DNA of 64,000 nucleotides from Micromonospora sp. NBC_01699. GTDB taxonomy: Bacteria > Actinomycetota > Actinomycetes > Mycobacteriales > Micromonosporaceae. The notes under the pieces were generated by a model. The model was not told where the DNA came from, ran no database searches, and worked only from the letters and a program-made list of their open reading frames with translations. A program made the position numbers and the translations under genes. Positions within the stretch are counted from its first letter, which is position 1. Each line of letters opens with the position of its first letter. The stretch lies in contig NZ_CP109199.1 of assembly GCF_036250065.1 (NCBI RefSeq), forward strand, positions 6,694,001-6,758,000, given 5' to 3'. Shown piece by piece: positions 356 through 6,144 of this stretch.

Positions 356-1624
356 ATGTCCACGCACAGCACCAGCCTCCGGCCACAGCCATCCGTACGC
401 CAGCACGGTCGAGGCTTCTGGGCGGTCGCGCTCGCCTTCGTCGCGGTGATGGCGCTCGGTACGGTGCCGTCCCCGCTCTACCCGCTCTACCAGCAGCACG
501 ACGGGTTCAGCACCTTCACCATCACGCTGATCTACGCCGCGTACGCCGCCGGTGTGATGGTCACCCTGTTCACCGCCGGGCACATCTCCGACTGGCACGG
601 CCGGCGCCGGATCCTCGCCCCGGCGGTCGCCCTCAGCGCGCTCAGCGCCGTGGTCTTCCTGCTCTGGCCGGCCCTGCCCGGCCTGTTCGTCGCCCGGGTG
701 CTCAGCGGCCTCTCGGTCGGTGTGGTGACCGCCACCGCCACCGTCTGGTTGGCGGAACTGCACCGGGCACACCGGCCGGACGCCTCAGCCCGGCGGGCCC
801 AACTCGTCGCCGCCACCGCCAACCTCGGTGGACTCGGCCTCGGCCCGCTGATCGCCGGCCTGCTCGCCCAGTACGCCCCCCAACCGCTGCGGCTGCCGTA
901 CGCGGTGCTGCTCGTCGCGCTGGCGTTGGCGCTGGTCGGCGTACTGCTCTCGCCGGATGTCCGGGAACTGCCCAACCCCCGCCCGCGCTACCGGGTGCAG
1001 CGGGTCGCCGTACCGGCCGCGTCCCGGAACCGGTTCTACGCCGCGCTGAGCGGGGCGTTTCTCGCCTTCGGCGGGCTCGGGGTGCTCACCGGGCTCTCCG
1101 GCACGTTCCTCGCCGGGACCCTGCACCACCCCTCCCGCGCACTCGCCGGGGCGGCGGTCTTCCTGGTCTTCGCCGCCGGGGTGGTGATCCAGTTGACCAC
1201 CGCCGCCTGGTCGATCCGGCGCAGCCTGGCGTTCGGGATGGGCGCGCTGCTGGCCGGGATCGGGCTGGTCGTCCTCGCCGCCTGGTTGCCGACCCCGAGC
1301 CTGGCGGTCTTCCTGGTCGGCGGGGTGCTGACCGGGGCGGGCGCCGGTTCGATGTTCAAGGGCACCCTCGGCACCACCGTGGCCATCTCTCACGACGAGA
1401 GCAGGGCGGAGTCGCTGGCCGGACTCTTCCTCGCCGGTTACCTCGGGCTTTCCGTACCGGTGATCGGGATCGGCATCGCGTTGCAGCACGTCAGCGCGCG
1501 GGTGGCGCTGCTCGGCTTCGCCGTACTCGTCGGGGTCGGGGTGCTGGCCGTGGCGCGGCGGCTGCTGGCCGGTCCGCGCCCGACCACGACGGCGGCCCGG
1601 CCGCTGGTCGCCGCCCAGCGCTGA
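356..1624 (+). CDS. MFS transporter, probable drug/metabolite efflux
   Basis: 422-residue hydrophobic protein with about 12 predicted transmembrane segments. The loop after helix 2 carries the major facilitator motif A (GHISDWHGRRR, residues 75-85), typical of proton-driven antiporters. ATG at 356 follows a GAGGTGC ribosome-binding site. It is transcribed away from the LysR gene, so that regulator probably controls it. The gene ends 56 bases before the convergent end of the RiPP-like operon, with a shared hairpin terminator between. Substrate unknown; an exporter role for the neighbouring peptide is possible, but opposite orientation and the terminator give no direct support. Confidence 0.85.
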   Translation: MSTHSTSLRPQPSVRQHGRGFWAVALAFVAVMALGTVPSPLYPLYQQHDGFSTFTITLIYAAYAAGVMVTLFTAGHISDWHGRRRILAPAVALSALSAVVFLLWPALPGLFVARVLSGLSVGVVTATATVWLAELHRAHRPDASARRAQLVAATANLGGLGLGPLIAGLLAQYAPQPLRLPYAVLLVALALALVGVLLSPDVRELPNPRPRYRVQRVAVPAASRNRFYAALSGAFLAFGGLGVLTGLSGTFLAGTLHHPSRALAGAAVFLVFAAGVVIQLTTAAWSIRRSLAFGMGALLAGIGLVVLAAWLPTPSLAVFLVGGVLTGAGAGSMFKGTLGTTVAISHDESRAESLAGLFLAGYLGLSVPVIGIGIALQHVSARVALLGFAVLVGVGVLAVARRLLAGPRPTTTAARPLVAAQR

Positions 1625-1679: not shown

Positions 1680-2813
1680 TCAGCCGTCGGCTGCCGCGAT
1701 CGCAACGCCACGGGACACGAGTTCGTTGAGCAACGACTCGATCTCCGTGCGCTCGTCGGGCCGGGCGCGGGCGACCAGTGCCGCCGGGTTGGTTCTGGTG
1801 CCAGTCGCCAGCTGGGCAATCACGGGCGCTACCGTCTCCGCGGGCAACGGCGTGTAAATGGTGTGACCGTCGACGCCGCATACGCACCCGTCGGGGACAG
1901 CAGTCCATCGCACCGGAAACCGTGAGTTTCCTTGCAGGACAACACCGTCGAGAGACATATTCGCCGACCGTGGTTCGGGCGCTGGTTCGAAACCTGCCGC
2001 CGTCAGTCTCCGCAGGGAGACCTCTGCTATCCGCCGTGGGTCGACCGTCGCCCTCGGCTGCGGCGGCATGGCGGTCGAGGTCACCGCATCCGCCGAGGAC
2101 ACAGCGACGATGTCGTCGATTTCGTACGCGGTGAGGTGCTCCTCCCGCGCGACACCTACATTGATGCTGGTCGCCGCTCCGGTGGTCTCGCCGACGTGGT
2201 AATAGCGGGACGGCCAGTAGAGCACATCTCCCGGCTCTACATCGACGGCGAACGACATCTCCAGATACGACGCATAATCGGCCTGCGTGCTGACCGGCTC
2301 GGACCAGGGACGGTCGGCCCAGAACCGCATCCGCTTGCGTCCACGCAACGGAAACATGAAGGTGGCGAAGCGGTCCTTGTGCACACCTACCGGGCTATGC
2401 TCATAATCGCCATGGAACAGGGTGGTGATGGCGCTGTCCAACGGCAGACCCACCCGCTTCCACAGCTCGGAGTAGAAGTCGCGCTCACGGTTCCACATCG
2501 CCCGGTCGAACCGGTGGAACCGATTGATCATCAGGGCATGTCGACGATCAGGCAGAATGACAGCCATACGTCGCTGATACCCGTCCCATGAGCCGTCCGA
2601 GGCAACCGGAAGCCACGGCTGCGGGGCCGACTGCCGAACCTGGTCGAGGGTGAGCCGTACGTCGACAGGGGCAGCACCCACCGCCGCCCGGAAGGTCGAT
2701 GTCTGGTCGAACGGCGCAACCCCGACACCGCGATAGTGGACTGGACGTCGATCCCAGTGGAGTTCCACGAACTCGTCCCAGTCGAATTGATCGGCTACCG
2801 CGTACTCAAGCAT
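1680..2813 (-). CDS. JmjC/cupin-8 type Fe(II)/2-oxoglutarate oxygenase, probable RiPP tailoring enzyme
   Basis: 377 residues. The N-terminal 230 residues read as a JmjC/cupin-like domain: H145-K-D147 followed by H206 (in PSRYYHVGE) give the H-x-D...H metal triad, and FMFPLRGRKRMRFW forms the core strands. Proteins of this family hydroxylate amino-acid side chains using Fe(II) and 2-oxoglutarate. The C-terminal ~110 residues form a second domain starting at LRRLTAAGFEPAPEPR (268-282), also present in the upstream neighbour. Last gene of a four-gene operon; its ATG overlaps the end of the preceding gene by 8 bases, so the two are probably translationally coupled. I infer action on the precursor peptide at 5978-6109. 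Substrate residue unknown. Confidence 0.7.
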   Translation of the reverse strand: MLEYAVADQFDWDEFVELHWDRRPVHYRGVGVAPFDQTSTFRAAVGAAPVDVRLTLDQVRQSAPQPWLPVASDGSWDGYQRRMAVILPDRRHALMINRFHRFDRAMWNRERDFYSELWKRVGLPLDSAITTLFHGDYEHSPVGVHKDRFATFMFPLRGRKRMRFWADRPWSEPVSTQADYASYLEMSFAVDVEPGDVLYWPSRYYHVGETTGAATSINVGVAREEHLTAYEIDDIVAVSSADAVTSTAMPPQPRATVDPRRIAEVSLRRLTAAGFEPAPEPRSANMSLDGVVLQGNSRFPVRWTAVPDGCVCGVDGHTIYTPLPAETVAPVIAQLATGTRTNPAALVARARPDERTEIESLLNELVSRGVAIAAADG

Positions 2814-3843
2814 GATCGATCACCCTTATCGAATACAGCATGCGCAGTAGACCGAGCACGCCGGGATGGGGCCGGCACAGGTCGGCAATCGAGCACGGAC
2901 CCTGCTGTAGCTGATCGAGGATCCGGTCGCCGAGTGTCCCACGCACCGGAAAGACGTGCCCGTTGCCTGCCCATAGCCATTCGTTGTCGTTGTCCATCCG
3001 GTGGACCGGATGGACGATCGTGACAATGTCCGAGGGGGACAACTCAGTCGGTTTGCGGGGGGCCGGCACCGGCTCCAGACCACCGGCACTGACGCGGCGC
3101 AACCAGGCCATCTTTCTGTGCCGTCGCAATTCTGGGCCGGCTAGCAGCTCACGTACCCGTTGCCCTGAGCTTTCGAGGTCCGGTAGCGGTGCGGTGGATC
3201 CGTCCGACCGCACCGGCGGTGGCCAGGGCGAATGCGGCATGGGCGGATTCGGGCCGCTGGTCCGGTCCAGGAGATCAGCCAGCATACCTTTCAGTTCGTC
3301 GCCGGGCAGATCCGCGTCCATTGGCGCGTGCACCCGCAGTACGAGGCCGTTCTCGTACTCTTCCTGGGTGTGCATCGCGCCGGGCGGACTTTGCCACATA
3401 TCGCCCGCCTTGATCACGGTGCCGTCGACCCGTACCGATCCGGAGAGCACCCACAGAGCTGTCGCCCGACGCGGCACAGGCTGTGTCCGCAGCGTGAAGC
3501 AATTCCCGATGGCGAGTTCGGTCAGGACCGGCTGAATGGGAAATCCCCACTGCTTCCACAGCTCAGTCAGTCCGGCCCGCACCTGCGCCCACACCGTGAA
3601 GTCAAGGAACAGCGGGTGCCGAACGGTCACCAGGTATCCGTCACCATCAAGGGCGGCATGTAGTCGCTCCGTATACGACGCCGCTGTCAGGTCGTCAGCC
3701 CCCGGCAGAAGTTGCCCGGGTAGGCCGATCTGCCCCGCTACGACGTCGAATCGCACATCGGGGAGGGCACCAAATCGGCTGCCCGCACGGAATGGTGCAC
3801 ACGCTGTCGTCAGGGTGCGATAGGCCGAGTCGACGGGGATCAC
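2806..3843 (-). CDS. Degenerate JmjC/cupin-like protein, paralogous partner of the downstream oxygenase
   Basis: 345 residues. Residues ~60-175 contain a cupin-like barrel (ALWVLSGSVRVDG, GDMWQSPPGAMH), and residues ~240-345 a C-terminal domain opening with LRRVSAGGLEPVPAPR, matching the downstream enzyme. Aligning ATALWVLSGSVRV with ATFMFPLRGRKRM of the paralogue puts Pro122 and Pro124 where that protein has H145 and D147; only the distal histidine (H158) remains. It is therefore probably not an active iron oxygenase and may act as a scaffold or peptide-binding partner. Start ATG overlaps the stop of the dehydratase gene by 4 bases (ATGA type). Function inferred from family and context only. 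Confidence 0.6.
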   Translation of the reverse strand: MIPVDSAYRTLTTACAPFRAGSRFGALPDVRFDVVAGQIGLPGQLLPGADDLTAASYTERLHAALDGDGYLVTVRHPLFLDFTVWAQVRAGLTELWKQWGFPIQPVLTELAIGNCFTLRTQPVPRRATALWVLSGSVRVDGTVIKAGDMWQSPPGAMHTQEEYENGLVLRVHAPMDADLPGDELKGMLADLLDRTSGPNPPMPHSPWPPPVRSDGSTAPLPDLESSGQRVRELLAGPELRRHRKMAWLRRVSAGGLEPVPAPRKPTELSPSDIVTIVHPVHRMDNDNEWLWAGNGHVFPVRGTLGDRILDQLQQGPCSIADLCRPHPGVLGLLRMLYSIRVIDHA

Positions 3844-5924
3844 AGGCCAAACTCCTCTCGCAAGCGCTGTGCGTAGTCGGTCAACGGTTCCAGCCCGACA
3901 GCCGCGCGTCGGACATCTACCCGGACGGGAGACTCAAGAGGATGGGGTCCCAGCTCGCCGTCGACGATCCGGAACTTGGTGCCATAAACCTGCGGCTGCC
4001 CGGCCTGTACGCGGAGCGCGTCGGTGAGGTAGGCGACCTGACGGGCCGGCAGATCACCGGCCGCCGCGGCCGAGCGCACGAGGTCCAAGCAGTGTTCACG
4101 AAAGGTCTGCTGGCCCTCAGCATGCTGAACGAGGCGGCAGGCGGCCTCGGCCGCATCGGGCCCTACCATCGCATGTCCCGGCCAGCCCTGCTGCCCGATC
4201 ACTTCCTCAAGCCACACCATCGCCTGCGCCGTGTGCGCGGCAAGTTGTCGTGCCGCGTCGTCATCGACGAATCCATCACGCGCCCAGCGTGTACGCAACC
4301 GCGCATCCCATGAGTCGATCCGCATCAGGGTGCGCCGCACCGGGTCGTCGAATCCGTGTTCCAACGGGTCGATCCGGAGGTGAACAGTGGCTTCATCCCA
4401 GAACCAGCGAACCCGTTTGCCGGTCTGCGCCCAGTCGAACTCCACCTCCGTCGGGCCGACATGGACGCCGAACTCGCGATCGTCGATGACATCGTCCTCG
4501 GAAACGCCCGCGTACTCGACGGCGTCCCGGAGGGCCATGCCGAGGCCGGAGAGCGTAAGGCGGTCGGGATCGAACCCGACGACGTGCTCCTCGCCGTCGG
4601 CCACCTCGACAAACTCGCCGTCCTGCCCCACCATCATCAGCGGTCCACCGGCAAGACAACGGAAGAAGTAGGGAACGTCCGCGCGTGTCAGCTGTGCCCG
4701 TTCAGCCGGGCTGAACCCGTCGAGTGGGACCTCACCGGCCAGCGCCTTGCCGTAGGTGGCGGTATCCGCCAGCAACACGCGAACGTGAAGTTCATCCGCC
4801 CGGTCCTGAATCAGCTCCGCAAGACGCTCCCGGCTGCGGCACATCCGCACCCAGGTATCGAACATCCCCCGCAGGAACACCGGCAGGTACGGTCCATACC
4901 CAATATTTCCGTCCACGTCCGCGACGACTGTTCGGGTCTGCGTCCGTGCCCAGGGGGCGTTGAGCCGGTCGATCCGCCGGCCATCCACAAACGCGTGCGA
5001 CGGGCCCTCGGCGGCGCACCACCGCGCCTGGTTTTCCAGTCCCACATGATGGTTGCCGGATGGGACGGCGATCAGGCCGGTGTCCGACAGCCGGCCGACC
5101 GGGGTGAGGAATACCTCCAAGTCAACCGGATACATGCGGTGATCCGCCCCGATCAGCACGTTCCCTTCGAACAGGTCTCCGATTCCGAATCCGAAGCAGG
5201 CTGCCGAAACTCCCCCGGCAGATCGGAAGTAGCGGCGAGCTTGGGTGGGGCTCAGCACGGCGCCGGCCAGTCGAAGCTCCGGCGAGCTGCGCAGCGTGCC
5301 CCATTCGGACGGCGGGTCCACCCATTCCTGCCACAGATAGGCCAGACGATCTGGGCGCTCGCCGGTCCAGCACCGCAGCGTCGGCAGGCCGAGAACGCCG
5401 AAGACTGAATCCCGTTCGGCTAGGAACAGCAGCTCACCGTTTGCCGGACGAGCCTTGTAGGCCACGGCCGCACCCCCGTGGCATTGCAGCCGGAGCACCC
5501 GTCTGCGTCCGTTGTGGGTCTCTCCCGGCATCGCGGTGATCCCCGTTATGGGCAACGCGAACGCTGGATGATCGGGCCAGGCATCCGCGTCGAGCCGCGC
5601 AAGAAACTCTTCCATGAAAGACAGGAACATGTCGGCCTCGACCCGGGCCTGTGCTGCGTCCTCGCGGGCACACCGGATGAGCAGCTCACTCACCAACGGG
5701 CCGAACAGGTCGGCGTTCGCGGGGTCGAACACGCCCGGTGCCACCCTGTCGCTGTGCATCGTCGGAGCCCATTGGTTGAGCCGTTCGAGCAGCTCCACCA
5801 CTGGCGCGAAGCGTGGCTCCGCGAGGATGCCGGCGACCTCGTCGGCGCGGAGGGGTCGATCGACGACAAACACGTTCTCGGCGGCTAAACGCACTACCGG
5901 AGGGAACAGTGCGGCAATGGTCAT
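3840..5924 (-). CDS. LanM-type (DUF4135) lanthipeptide dehydratase-like protein with C-terminal DUF6624-like domain, no LanC cyclase
   Basis: 694 residues from the ATG at 5922-5924, preferred over an upstream in-frame start because GAGGGG lies six bases before it. Residues ~20-530 match the class II lanthipeptide dehydratase, a kinase-like fold that phosphorylates Ser/Thr and eliminates phosphate. Visible: invariant-type lysine in AVAYKARP (K157), GIGDLFEGNVLI (D250, N255; the usual GDLHxEN histidine is Phe252), VDLE (D268), and VRVLLADTATY holding Arg382 and Thr388 at the spacing of the LanM elimination pair. LanMs continue into a ~400-residue LanC cyclase; here the last ~140 residues (554-694: GWPG, VQHAE, AYLTDALRV, YGTKF, VDVRRAAVGLEPL) instead resemble DUF6624. 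There is no CHG zinc motif. The precursor gene lies 53 bases upstream, two cupin genes downstream overlap in series. Probably dehydrates or phosphorylates the precursor. Confidence 0.75.
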   Translation of the reverse strand: MTIAALFPPVVRLAAENVFVVDRPLRADEVAGILAEPRFAPVVELLERLNQWAPTMHSDRVAPGVFDPANADLFGPLVSELLIRCAREDAAQARVEADMFLSFMEEFLARLDADAWPDHPAFALPITGITAMPGETHNGRRRVLRLQCHGGAAVAYKARPANGELLFLAERDSVFGVLGLPTLRCWTGERPDRLAYLWQEWVDPPSEWGTLRSSPELRLAGAVLSPTQARRYFRSAGGVSAACFGFGIGDLFEGNVLIGADHRMYPVDLEVFLTPVGRLSDTGLIAVPSGNHHVGLENQARWCAAEGPSHAFVDGRRIDRLNAPWARTQTRTVVADVDGNIGYGPYLPVFLRGMFDTWVRMCRSRERLAELIQDRADELHVRVLLADTATYGKALAGEVPLDGFSPAERAQLTRADVPYFFRCLAGGPLMMVGQDGEFVEVADGEEHVVGFDPDRLTLSGLGMALRDAVEYAGVSEDDVIDDREFGVHVGPTEVEFDWAQTGKRVRWFWDEATVHLRIDPLEHGFDDPVRRTLMRIDSWDARLRTRWARDGFVDDDAARQLAAHTAQAMVWLEEVIGQQGWPGHAMVGPDAAEAACRLVQHAEGQQTFREHCLDLVRSAAAAGDLPARQVAYLTDALRVQAGQPQVYGTKFRIVDGELGPHPLESPVRVDVRRAAVGLEPLTDYAQRLREEFGL

Positions 5925-5977
5925 GTGCGGCCCCTCGGAATGGTGGGCCGGTTGCACCGGCCCACCATCCATCGCGA

Positions 5978-6109
5978 TCAGATGCAGTAGTAGTGGCGGA
6001 TACAGGTACCGCGCTGGGCGGCGCCCTCCTCGATTACCTGCTCAAGCTCGCCAACGACGAGGTCGAGCTCCTCCACCTCAGTTTGCTCCGAGCTGGTGAC
6101 GTCGGTCAT
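5978..6109 (-). CDS. RiPP precursor peptide, 43 residues (leader plus short Cys-containing core)
   Basis: ATG at 6107-6109 is preceded by a perfect AGGAGG (6115-6120), stronger than any start further upstream. Residues 1-28 are acidic and leader-like (VEELDLVVGELEQVIEE near residues 12-28), followed by a small-residue break GAAQR and the C-terminal GTCIRHYYCI. The last ten residues hold one Thr (35), two Cys (36, 42) and two Tyr, suiting dehydration of Thr35, a thioether to Cys42 or a Cys36-Cys42 disulfide, and hydroxylation. A short acidic leader next to a LanM-type enzyme gene is the standard RiPP layout. Core boundary (after A31, Q32 or R33) is inferred. No homologue recognised. Confidence 0.75.
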   Translation of the reverse strand: MTDVTSSEQTEVEELDLVVGELEQVIEEGAAQRGTCIRHYYCI

Positions 6110-6144
6110 GACTGCCTCCTCCGCGAAGATCAATGATGTTGGAA

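Follow-up and report, generated by a model that had tools for sequence, protein, structure and literature searches.

A conserved operon family joining a LanC-less LanM-type dehydratase, a DUF6624 domain and two JmjC-type proteins, a candidate source of new bacterial peptide natural products

Introduction

Does a LanM-type dehydratase devoid of a LanC cyclase domain, encoded next to a tiny peptide gene and two genes of JmjC-type proteins, belong to a genuine biosynthetic pathway, and what would this pathway do to its peptide? This question is raised by an operon found in a stretch of 64,000 nucleotides from Micromonospora sp. NBC_01699 (contig NZ_CP109199.1, positions 6,694,001 to 6,758,000; hereafter the window), for which an earlier note had proposed a new class of ribosomally synthesized and post-translationally modified peptides (RiPPs). 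The present analysis shows that the operon belongs to a conserved RiPP operon family that is real and not an artefact. The proposal was largely right about the conserved precursor, the LanM-type dehydratase without LanC and the co-occurrence of the genes; its idea that LanC had been replaced did not hold. In our preferred reading, to which we give a probability of about 0.62, the Ser or Thr located before a Cys of the precursor would be dehydrated and its C-x-Y-C end would be oxidized by the oxygenase JMJ and its paralogue CUP.

Conservation of the operon and of its precursor peptides

Sixty-four loci were studied: the window, 59 loci kept among the 97 stretches that fitted the patterns of a contig scan, one locus of Nonomuraea gerenzanensis and three further ones. 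The loci from the contig scan belong to Streptomyces (n = 33), to other Actinomycetota (n = 13, across Kitasatospora, Nonomuraea, Sphaerisporangium, Catenulispora, Actinorhabdospora, Plantactinospora, Fodinicola and Stackebrandtia), to Luteimonas, Lysobacter and Lysobacterales metagenome-assembled genomes (n = 10), to Myxococcus (n = 2) and to one record labelled Comamonas (L090), which is probably mislabelled, its genome amounting to about 9 Mb and its precursor closely resembling that of Myxococcus locus L093. Among plasmids, 35 records gave a match, of which one, N. gerenzanensis (11.85 Mb), contains the enzyme in full. Four loci (L034, L036, L037 and L040) were left out of the 64 since they have the same DNA as L096, L067, L070 and L088, respectively, as was L035, a paralogue devoid of JmjC genes and of DUF6624. 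This L035 protein consists of the dehydratase part alone (557 aa), and its catalytic loop is partly missing in the alignment.

Small open reading frames (ORFs) ending with the motif [S/T]-C-x(2-4)-aa-Y-C were found in all 64 loci (one to three per locus, 80 in total, with one to three in the Luteimonas loci). Seventy-nine of them lie directly before the enzyme gene, in 63 loci, and the true precursor of the remaining locus, Myxococcus L084, lies between operon genes; off-target matches of the motif amounted to one in the six-frame reading of 968 kb. Among the 79 ORFs, the residue preceding the first core Cys is Thr (n = 57) or Ser (n = 22) and the spacer between this Cys and the final YC has three (n = 50), four (n = 25) or five residues (n = 4), giving 64 distinct motif strings. 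The search expression itself imposes [S/T]C and YC, and a profile of the leaders (consensus dlviG.lEq..P) served as a check independent of the core. Although built from the same leaders, it matched the 80 motif ORFs and nothing else among 13,316 ORFs at E ≤ 1, and therefore every ORF seen with such a leader also carried the motif. The window precursor matched no Pfam model, and six precursors compared with NCBIfam gave no match at E ≤ 1. The window taken alone would permit that this peptide is a chance ORF beside an unrelated kinase/oxygenase operon; the presence of motif ORFs in 64/64 loci and the leader profile refute this explanation, which retains next to no probability.

The other genes are conserved together with the precursor and do not vary at random: the precursor accompanies the enzyme in every locus, and both JmjC-type genes are present in the 60 loci uncut by a contig end (L061, L092, L094 and L095 being omitted from the JmjC counts for this reason). 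In Luteimonas, the first JmjC-type gene precedes the enzyme gene. The conserved co-occurrence that the earlier note suggested looking for was also recovered by starting from JMJ. Its profile matched at least three of 394 genomes of the class (that of the window counted), with the enzyme and the precursor adjoining in 3/3, and at least eight of 354 genomes of the window's family, seven of which are those carrying the enzyme. Full-length relatives of the enzyme occur in at least seven of these 354 genomes, its own counted; all these genome counts are lower bounds because few candidates per genome were scored. The eighth genome with a JMJ match (G038) gave a weaker score (112 bits), and its JmjC relative has a neighbour that, named from its sequence, we take to be a radical S-adenosylmethionine (SAM) enzyme. 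The distance matrices of the enzyme, CUP and JMJ correlate at 0.94-0.97 over 39 loci, values that include shared ancestry and are as expected of co-inherited genes.

Organization of the locus in the window

The coordinates (Table 1) and Pfam matches bear out the arrangement first described, i.e., a 43-residue precursor with a perfect AGGAGG and a GTCIRHYYCI end, a DUF4135 enzyme starting 53 bases after the precursor stop and two JmjC-type genes overlapping in series. The enzyme and CUP genes overlap by 4 bases and the CUP and JMJ genes by 8 bases; an alternative in-frame ATG at 5972 would lengthen the enzyme to 710 aa. Pfam matches on the enzyme are DUF4135 (56.6 bits, cut-off 29) and DUF6624 (71.3 bits, cut-off 27). 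JMJ matches JmjC_2 (36.4 bits, cut-off 22) and CUP has a sub-threshold Cupin_7 match alone.

Table 1. Features of the operon and of its convergent neighbour in the window
Feature	Positions	Strand	Remarks
Precursor gene	5978..6109	-	43 aa; DLVVGELEQ-type motif in the leader, core ending in GTCIRHYYCI
Precursor ribosome-binding site AGGAGG	6115..6120	-	Read directly from the letters
GC-rich hairpin	5937..5970	-	Between precursor and enzyme gene; near-perfect, z -3.0
Enzyme, LanM-type dehydratase (kinase/lyase)–DUF6624 fusion	3840..5924	-	694 aa
Dehydratase part of the enzyme	4650..5642	-	DUF4135 match (residues 95-275) plus the region up to about residue 425, which includes R382 and T388
DUF6624 domain of the enzyme	3843..4256	-	Residues 557-694
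CUP, JmjC-type paralogue without Fe ligands (pseudo-oxygenase)	2806..3843	-	345 aa; C-terminal tail weakly RRE-like (RRE, RiPP recognition element)
JMJ, JmjC_2 (ROX-type) Fe/2-oxoglutarate oxygenase	1680..2813	-	377 aa; HxD...H and Lys conserved
MFS-type transporter gene (by sequence; MFS, major facilitator superfamily)	356-1624	+	Converges on the operon; not a fixed neighbour in relatives, not counted in the operon

Hairpins commonly follow RiPP precursor genes. Among the 12 of the 64 loci that were folded, 10 have a hairpin behind the precursor with z ≤ -1.8, the others being L066 (-1.1) and L041 (-0.2). This structure is likely an attenuator or a stabilizer that would yield more precursor than enzyme.

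The dehydratase part of the enzyme

The enzyme was aligned for 43 of the 64 loci; those omitted have broken frames (L049 and L098), are truncated (L092 and L095) or belong to 17 others including near copies of kept rows. In L049 and L098, the broken enzyme frame (together with a LanC gene that is also in pieces in L098) may be due to sequencing error or to decay. Alignment with four LanM-type proteins of the same bacterial family places E135 and H137 at the positions of Asp252 and His254 of CylM (the P-loop pair). The residues of CylM involved in elimination are Asp252, His254, Arg506 and Thr512, and those involved in phosphorylation are Lys274, Asp347, His349, Asn352 and Asp364 (PMC4550811; here and below, articles given by PMC number are cited from excerpts). 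In the enzymes, E135, H137, K157, D250, N255, D268, E270 and R382 are kept in 43/43, and T388 is Thr in 39 and Ser in four.

The enzyme profile aligns with a LanM profile over the dehydratase with a probability of 99%. The match of the window enzyme to the NCBIfam LanM model is far below the cut-off (17.9 bits vs 304), and a PDB search with this sequence alone gave nothing at E ≤ 1; the 43-row enzyme profile retrieved CylM and LicM2, over the dehydratase part only. Because nearly all the residues used by LanM for phosphorylation and elimination are retained (one His is lost and one Asp is Glu) and the profiles align at 99%, the enzyme is predicted to dehydrate the Ser or Thr preceding the first core Cys. 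It would phosphorylate this residue and then eliminate the phosphate, giving dehydroalanine or dehydrobutyrine (Dha/Dhb), a two-step activity that we consider quite probable from the residues retained.

An alternative, allowed for in the earlier note, is that the enzyme only phosphorylates or dehydrates its peptide, the product staying linear (phosphorylated or containing Dha/Dhb) or being closed by a disulfide. It would agree with the lack of LanC in 37 of the 58 assessable loci (see below) and with the LanMbC enzymes of dehydrazoles, which dehydrate without forming lanthionine rings (PMC10676384). Nevertheless, the retention of the elimination residues in 43/43 enzymes (T388 being counted as Thr or Ser) argues against a role as kinase only, and a disulfide would require neither JMJ nor the invariant Tyr, so that we regard this alternative as very unlikely.

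LanC and DUF6624

As the earlier note had stated, the LanM-type enzyme of the window carries no LanC domain: it gave no LANC_like match in the Pfam scan and stays below the NCBIfam LanM cut-off. The only LanC-like match in its own genome (8.28 Mb) is about 2.8 Mb from the operon. However, a separate LanC gene is located behind the JmjC genes in 21 other loci, from Streptomyces, Nonomuraea and one Fodinicola (three of them, tested against LANC_like, scored 151.6-160.2 bits; the LanC of L080 and of L098 is spread over several frames). Of the 58 loci whose downstream DNA is long enough, those with four-Cys precursors all carry LanC (21/21), and those whose precursors have two or three Cys never do (0/37). 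The six loci set aside for want of downstream DNA include L061 and L092, with four-Cys precursors and contigs that end before any visible LanC. The match between LanC and four Cys is exact, but the LanC-carrying loci are probably few independent events and no significance is therefore claimed. Since LanC is found only with four-Cys precursors, most members process the common [S/T]C-x-YC end in the absence of LanC, whose probable task in the 21 relatives is the extra Thr/Cys set.

DUF6624 was found, fused or nearby, at 63 of 69 loci (a count that includes the duplicates and the L035 paralogue) and is a separate gene in Myxococcus L084. The earlier idea that it stands in place of LanC is not supported, as it is present in all 21 loci with a separate LanC; coexisting with LanC, it is therefore a common component and not a plain LanC replacement. 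The same note had considered that the C-terminal domain could be a truncated LanC. Beside the lack of a Pfam LANC_like match in the enzyme, the DUF6624 profile gave 0.2% against both stand-alone LanC and LanM, in a comparison whose positive control (LanC vs LanM) failed, with only 1.7%. A narrower proposal is that DUF6624 acts as a true substitute cyclase in the LanC-less members, in favour of which are its wide occurrence and its supply elsewhere in two genomes whose locus is devoid of it (those of L090 and L093, with a pathway-type copy beside another JmjC pair). Its equal presence in the LanC loci and its occurrence apart from DUF4135 in unrelated settings make this proposal unlikely; matches to the DUF6624 part alone are common in the window's family.

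A graspetide survey found DUF6624 in four groups and regarded it as a possible biosynthetic enzyme (PMC13097080). As a separate observation, two resistance cassettes in a class 1 integron of a Klebsiella plasmid flank a stand-alone DUF6624 gene (L105, 3857-4402), showing that this family also occurs as a gene cassette.

The pair of JmjC-type proteins

The description of the last two genes as encoding two JmjC/cupin proteins stands in that both are JmjC-type and conserved, but only JMJ looks catalytic. JMJ keeps the H, D, H facial triad and the Lys in 60/60, whereas CUP retains at most one of the three metal ligands in every one of the 60. The C-terminal tails of the two proteins match each other at 97.5%; against a PqqD (RRE) profile, the CUP tail gave a weak match (26%, E 7e-4) and the JMJ tail 2.6%, the two halves of PqqD giving 99% as a control. 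RRE tails have been reported on PF08007 JmjC proteins (PMC12710340).

A more distant JmjC relative and its neighbour, with a small acidic peptide nearby, lie in L133 (6557-7774 and 7818-10139, both on the reverse strand), and this is possibly another RiPP cluster; from its sequence, the neighbour is presumably a B12-radical-SAM enzyme.

In the preferred reading, JMJ would oxidize the invariant C-x(2-4)-aa-Y-C end, with the metal-less CUP as a partner that would also bind the leader. A Cys-Tyr crosslink is our tentative first choice for the reaction, by analogy with the first report of a 2-oxoglutarate enzyme that links Cys to Tyr in RiPPs (Xia et al., JACS 2025, 147:26693, according to a citing sentence in PMC12636437); that enzyme may belong to the present family. 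Beta-hydroxylation of the Tyr or of a neighbour is a possible, less favoured second choice.

It could also be that JMJ only hydroxylates (giving for example beta-OH Tyr), the terminal Cys and the dehydrated Ser/Thr forming a (methyl)lanthionine with no Cys-Tyr bond. This would fit the solved JmjC_2 relatives, which are named hydroxylases (the L16 arginine hydroxylase, E 7e-5, and NO66, a histidyl hydroxylase and demethylase, E 0.02), as well as BipG of biphenomycin, a JmjC ornithine hydroxylase (PMC12707348). It leaves unexplained the invariance of the first Cys, which equals that of the second, and we find this reading rather unlikely.

Proposed pathway

Taken as a whole, the preferred pathway would consist of (i) phosphorylation and elimination at the Ser/Thr before the first core Cys, (ii) oxidation of the C-x-Y-C end by JMJ assisted by CUP and (iii) perhaps addition of the second Cys to Dha/Dhb, unaided or with DUF6624, to give a (methyl)lanthionine. 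In the 21 relatives, the separate LanC would handle the extra Thr/Cys set. A further elaboration, fairly improbable as it stands, is a nested bicycle in which the JmjC pair would make an inner Cys-Tyr bond and an outer (methyl)lanthionine, formed in the absence of LanC, would connect the dehydrated Ser/Thr to the last Cys, DUF6624 being a new RiPP enzyme. If true, all four invariant residues would be used and the family would be a new RiPP class present in at least three phyla.

Several points weigh against the preferred pathway. The position of the catalytic-loop His349 of CylM is His in 0/43 enzymes (the H349A variant of CylM is slow and not inactive; PMC4550811), and Asp252 of CylM corresponds to Glu in the enzyme family. 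DUF6624 is absent from three uncut loci (L087, L090 and L093), the species of L087 having a second locus with DUF6624 (L069). The choice of crosslinking over hydroxylation by JMJ is an argument from analogy. Furthermore, the loci are related to each other, so that the counts are not numbers of independent events, and all the support comes from gene order, conservation, active-site residues and motif invariance.

Neighbouring genes

Flanking genes were clustered over 65 loci and the largest clusters were named by eye. They correspond to LanC, to antisense or shadow frames of operon genes and mainly to local synteny within groups of 5-10 Streptomyces or Luteimonas loci that are closely placed. 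Those among the largest clusters that cross groups, at varied distances, are similar to short-chain dehydrogenases/reductases (SDR; eight loci, window included) and to MFS transporters (five loci, i.e., four Streptomyces and L073), names that we assume from the sequences; we attribute their presence to chance, both families being common. A transporter or a protease as a conserved part of the operon was therefore rejected, cross-group clusters being few among the largest ones and at varied distances. The earlier statement that the locus has no protease or dedicated transporter agrees with these largest clusters, in which none was seen at a fixed place beside the operon, with the reservation of the MFS-like family. 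A defence system was likewise rejected, the three operon proteins having no PADLOC match. Upstream of Luteimonas operons (L066, L076-L079 and L081) are genes that we take to be NADH dehydrogenase (nuo)-like, with presumed nusA/infB downstream in most.

Relation to known systems and significance

The operon can be compared with five known systems. With class II LanM enzymes (CylM and relatives), it shares the DUF4135 lipid-kinase-like dehydratase and nearly the same phosphorylation and elimination residues; it differs by the absence of the LanC domain, the presence of DUF6624 instead, the loss of the catalytic-loop His, the JmjC pair and a tiny core. The dehydrazole LanMbC (CcaM, carnazolamide; PMC10676384) is also a divergent DUF4135 dehydratase that works with partner enzymes and without lanthionine formation. 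CcaM differs by its class III cyclase domain, which is devoid of zinc, and by its YcaO partners; neither a dehydrazole-type YcaO nor a class III-like cyclase domain is among the four operon proteins (Pfam found DUF4135, DUF6624 and JmjC/cupin only; the window flanks were not scanned for YcaO). BipG is similarly a JmjC Fe/2-oxoglutarate enzyme tailoring a RiPP core, but biphenomycin arises from a pathway with multinuclear non-haem iron-dependent oxidative (MNIO) and radical SAM enzymes, with ornithine hydroxylation, in a cluster described without DUF4135 (PMC12707348). The macrocyclization of Xia et al., compared through the citing sentence, shares the Cys and Tyr that are invariant in the present cores. 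Finally, graspetide groups 18, 20, 23 and 42 have DUF6624 beside RiPP precursors, and oxygenases too in group 18; their chemistry is that of ATP-grasp enzymes, lanthipeptide dehydratases being only rarer neighbours in some new groups (PMC13097080).

Precedents thus exist in RiPPs for LanM-type enzymes, JmjC enzymes and DUF6624, but the literature searched yielded neither their combination nor the motif. No description of the present operon was found in the open-licence PMC articles searched, a scope outside which most subscription papers lie.

Overall, one short invariant motif, shared by Streptomyces and its relatives, the Lysobacterales and Myxococcus, links a LanC-less LanM-type dehydratase, DUF6624 and a JmjC pair made of a catalytic protein and a pseudo-enzyme. 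As the core has about 10 residues and the genes are few, each step could be tested by co-expression, including lanthionine formation without LanC and the role of DUF6624, and the LanC-bearing (four-Cys) and LanC-less (two- or three-Cys) members provide a natural experiment. Judging from its sequences, this operon family may well represent a new family of natural products in bacteria.

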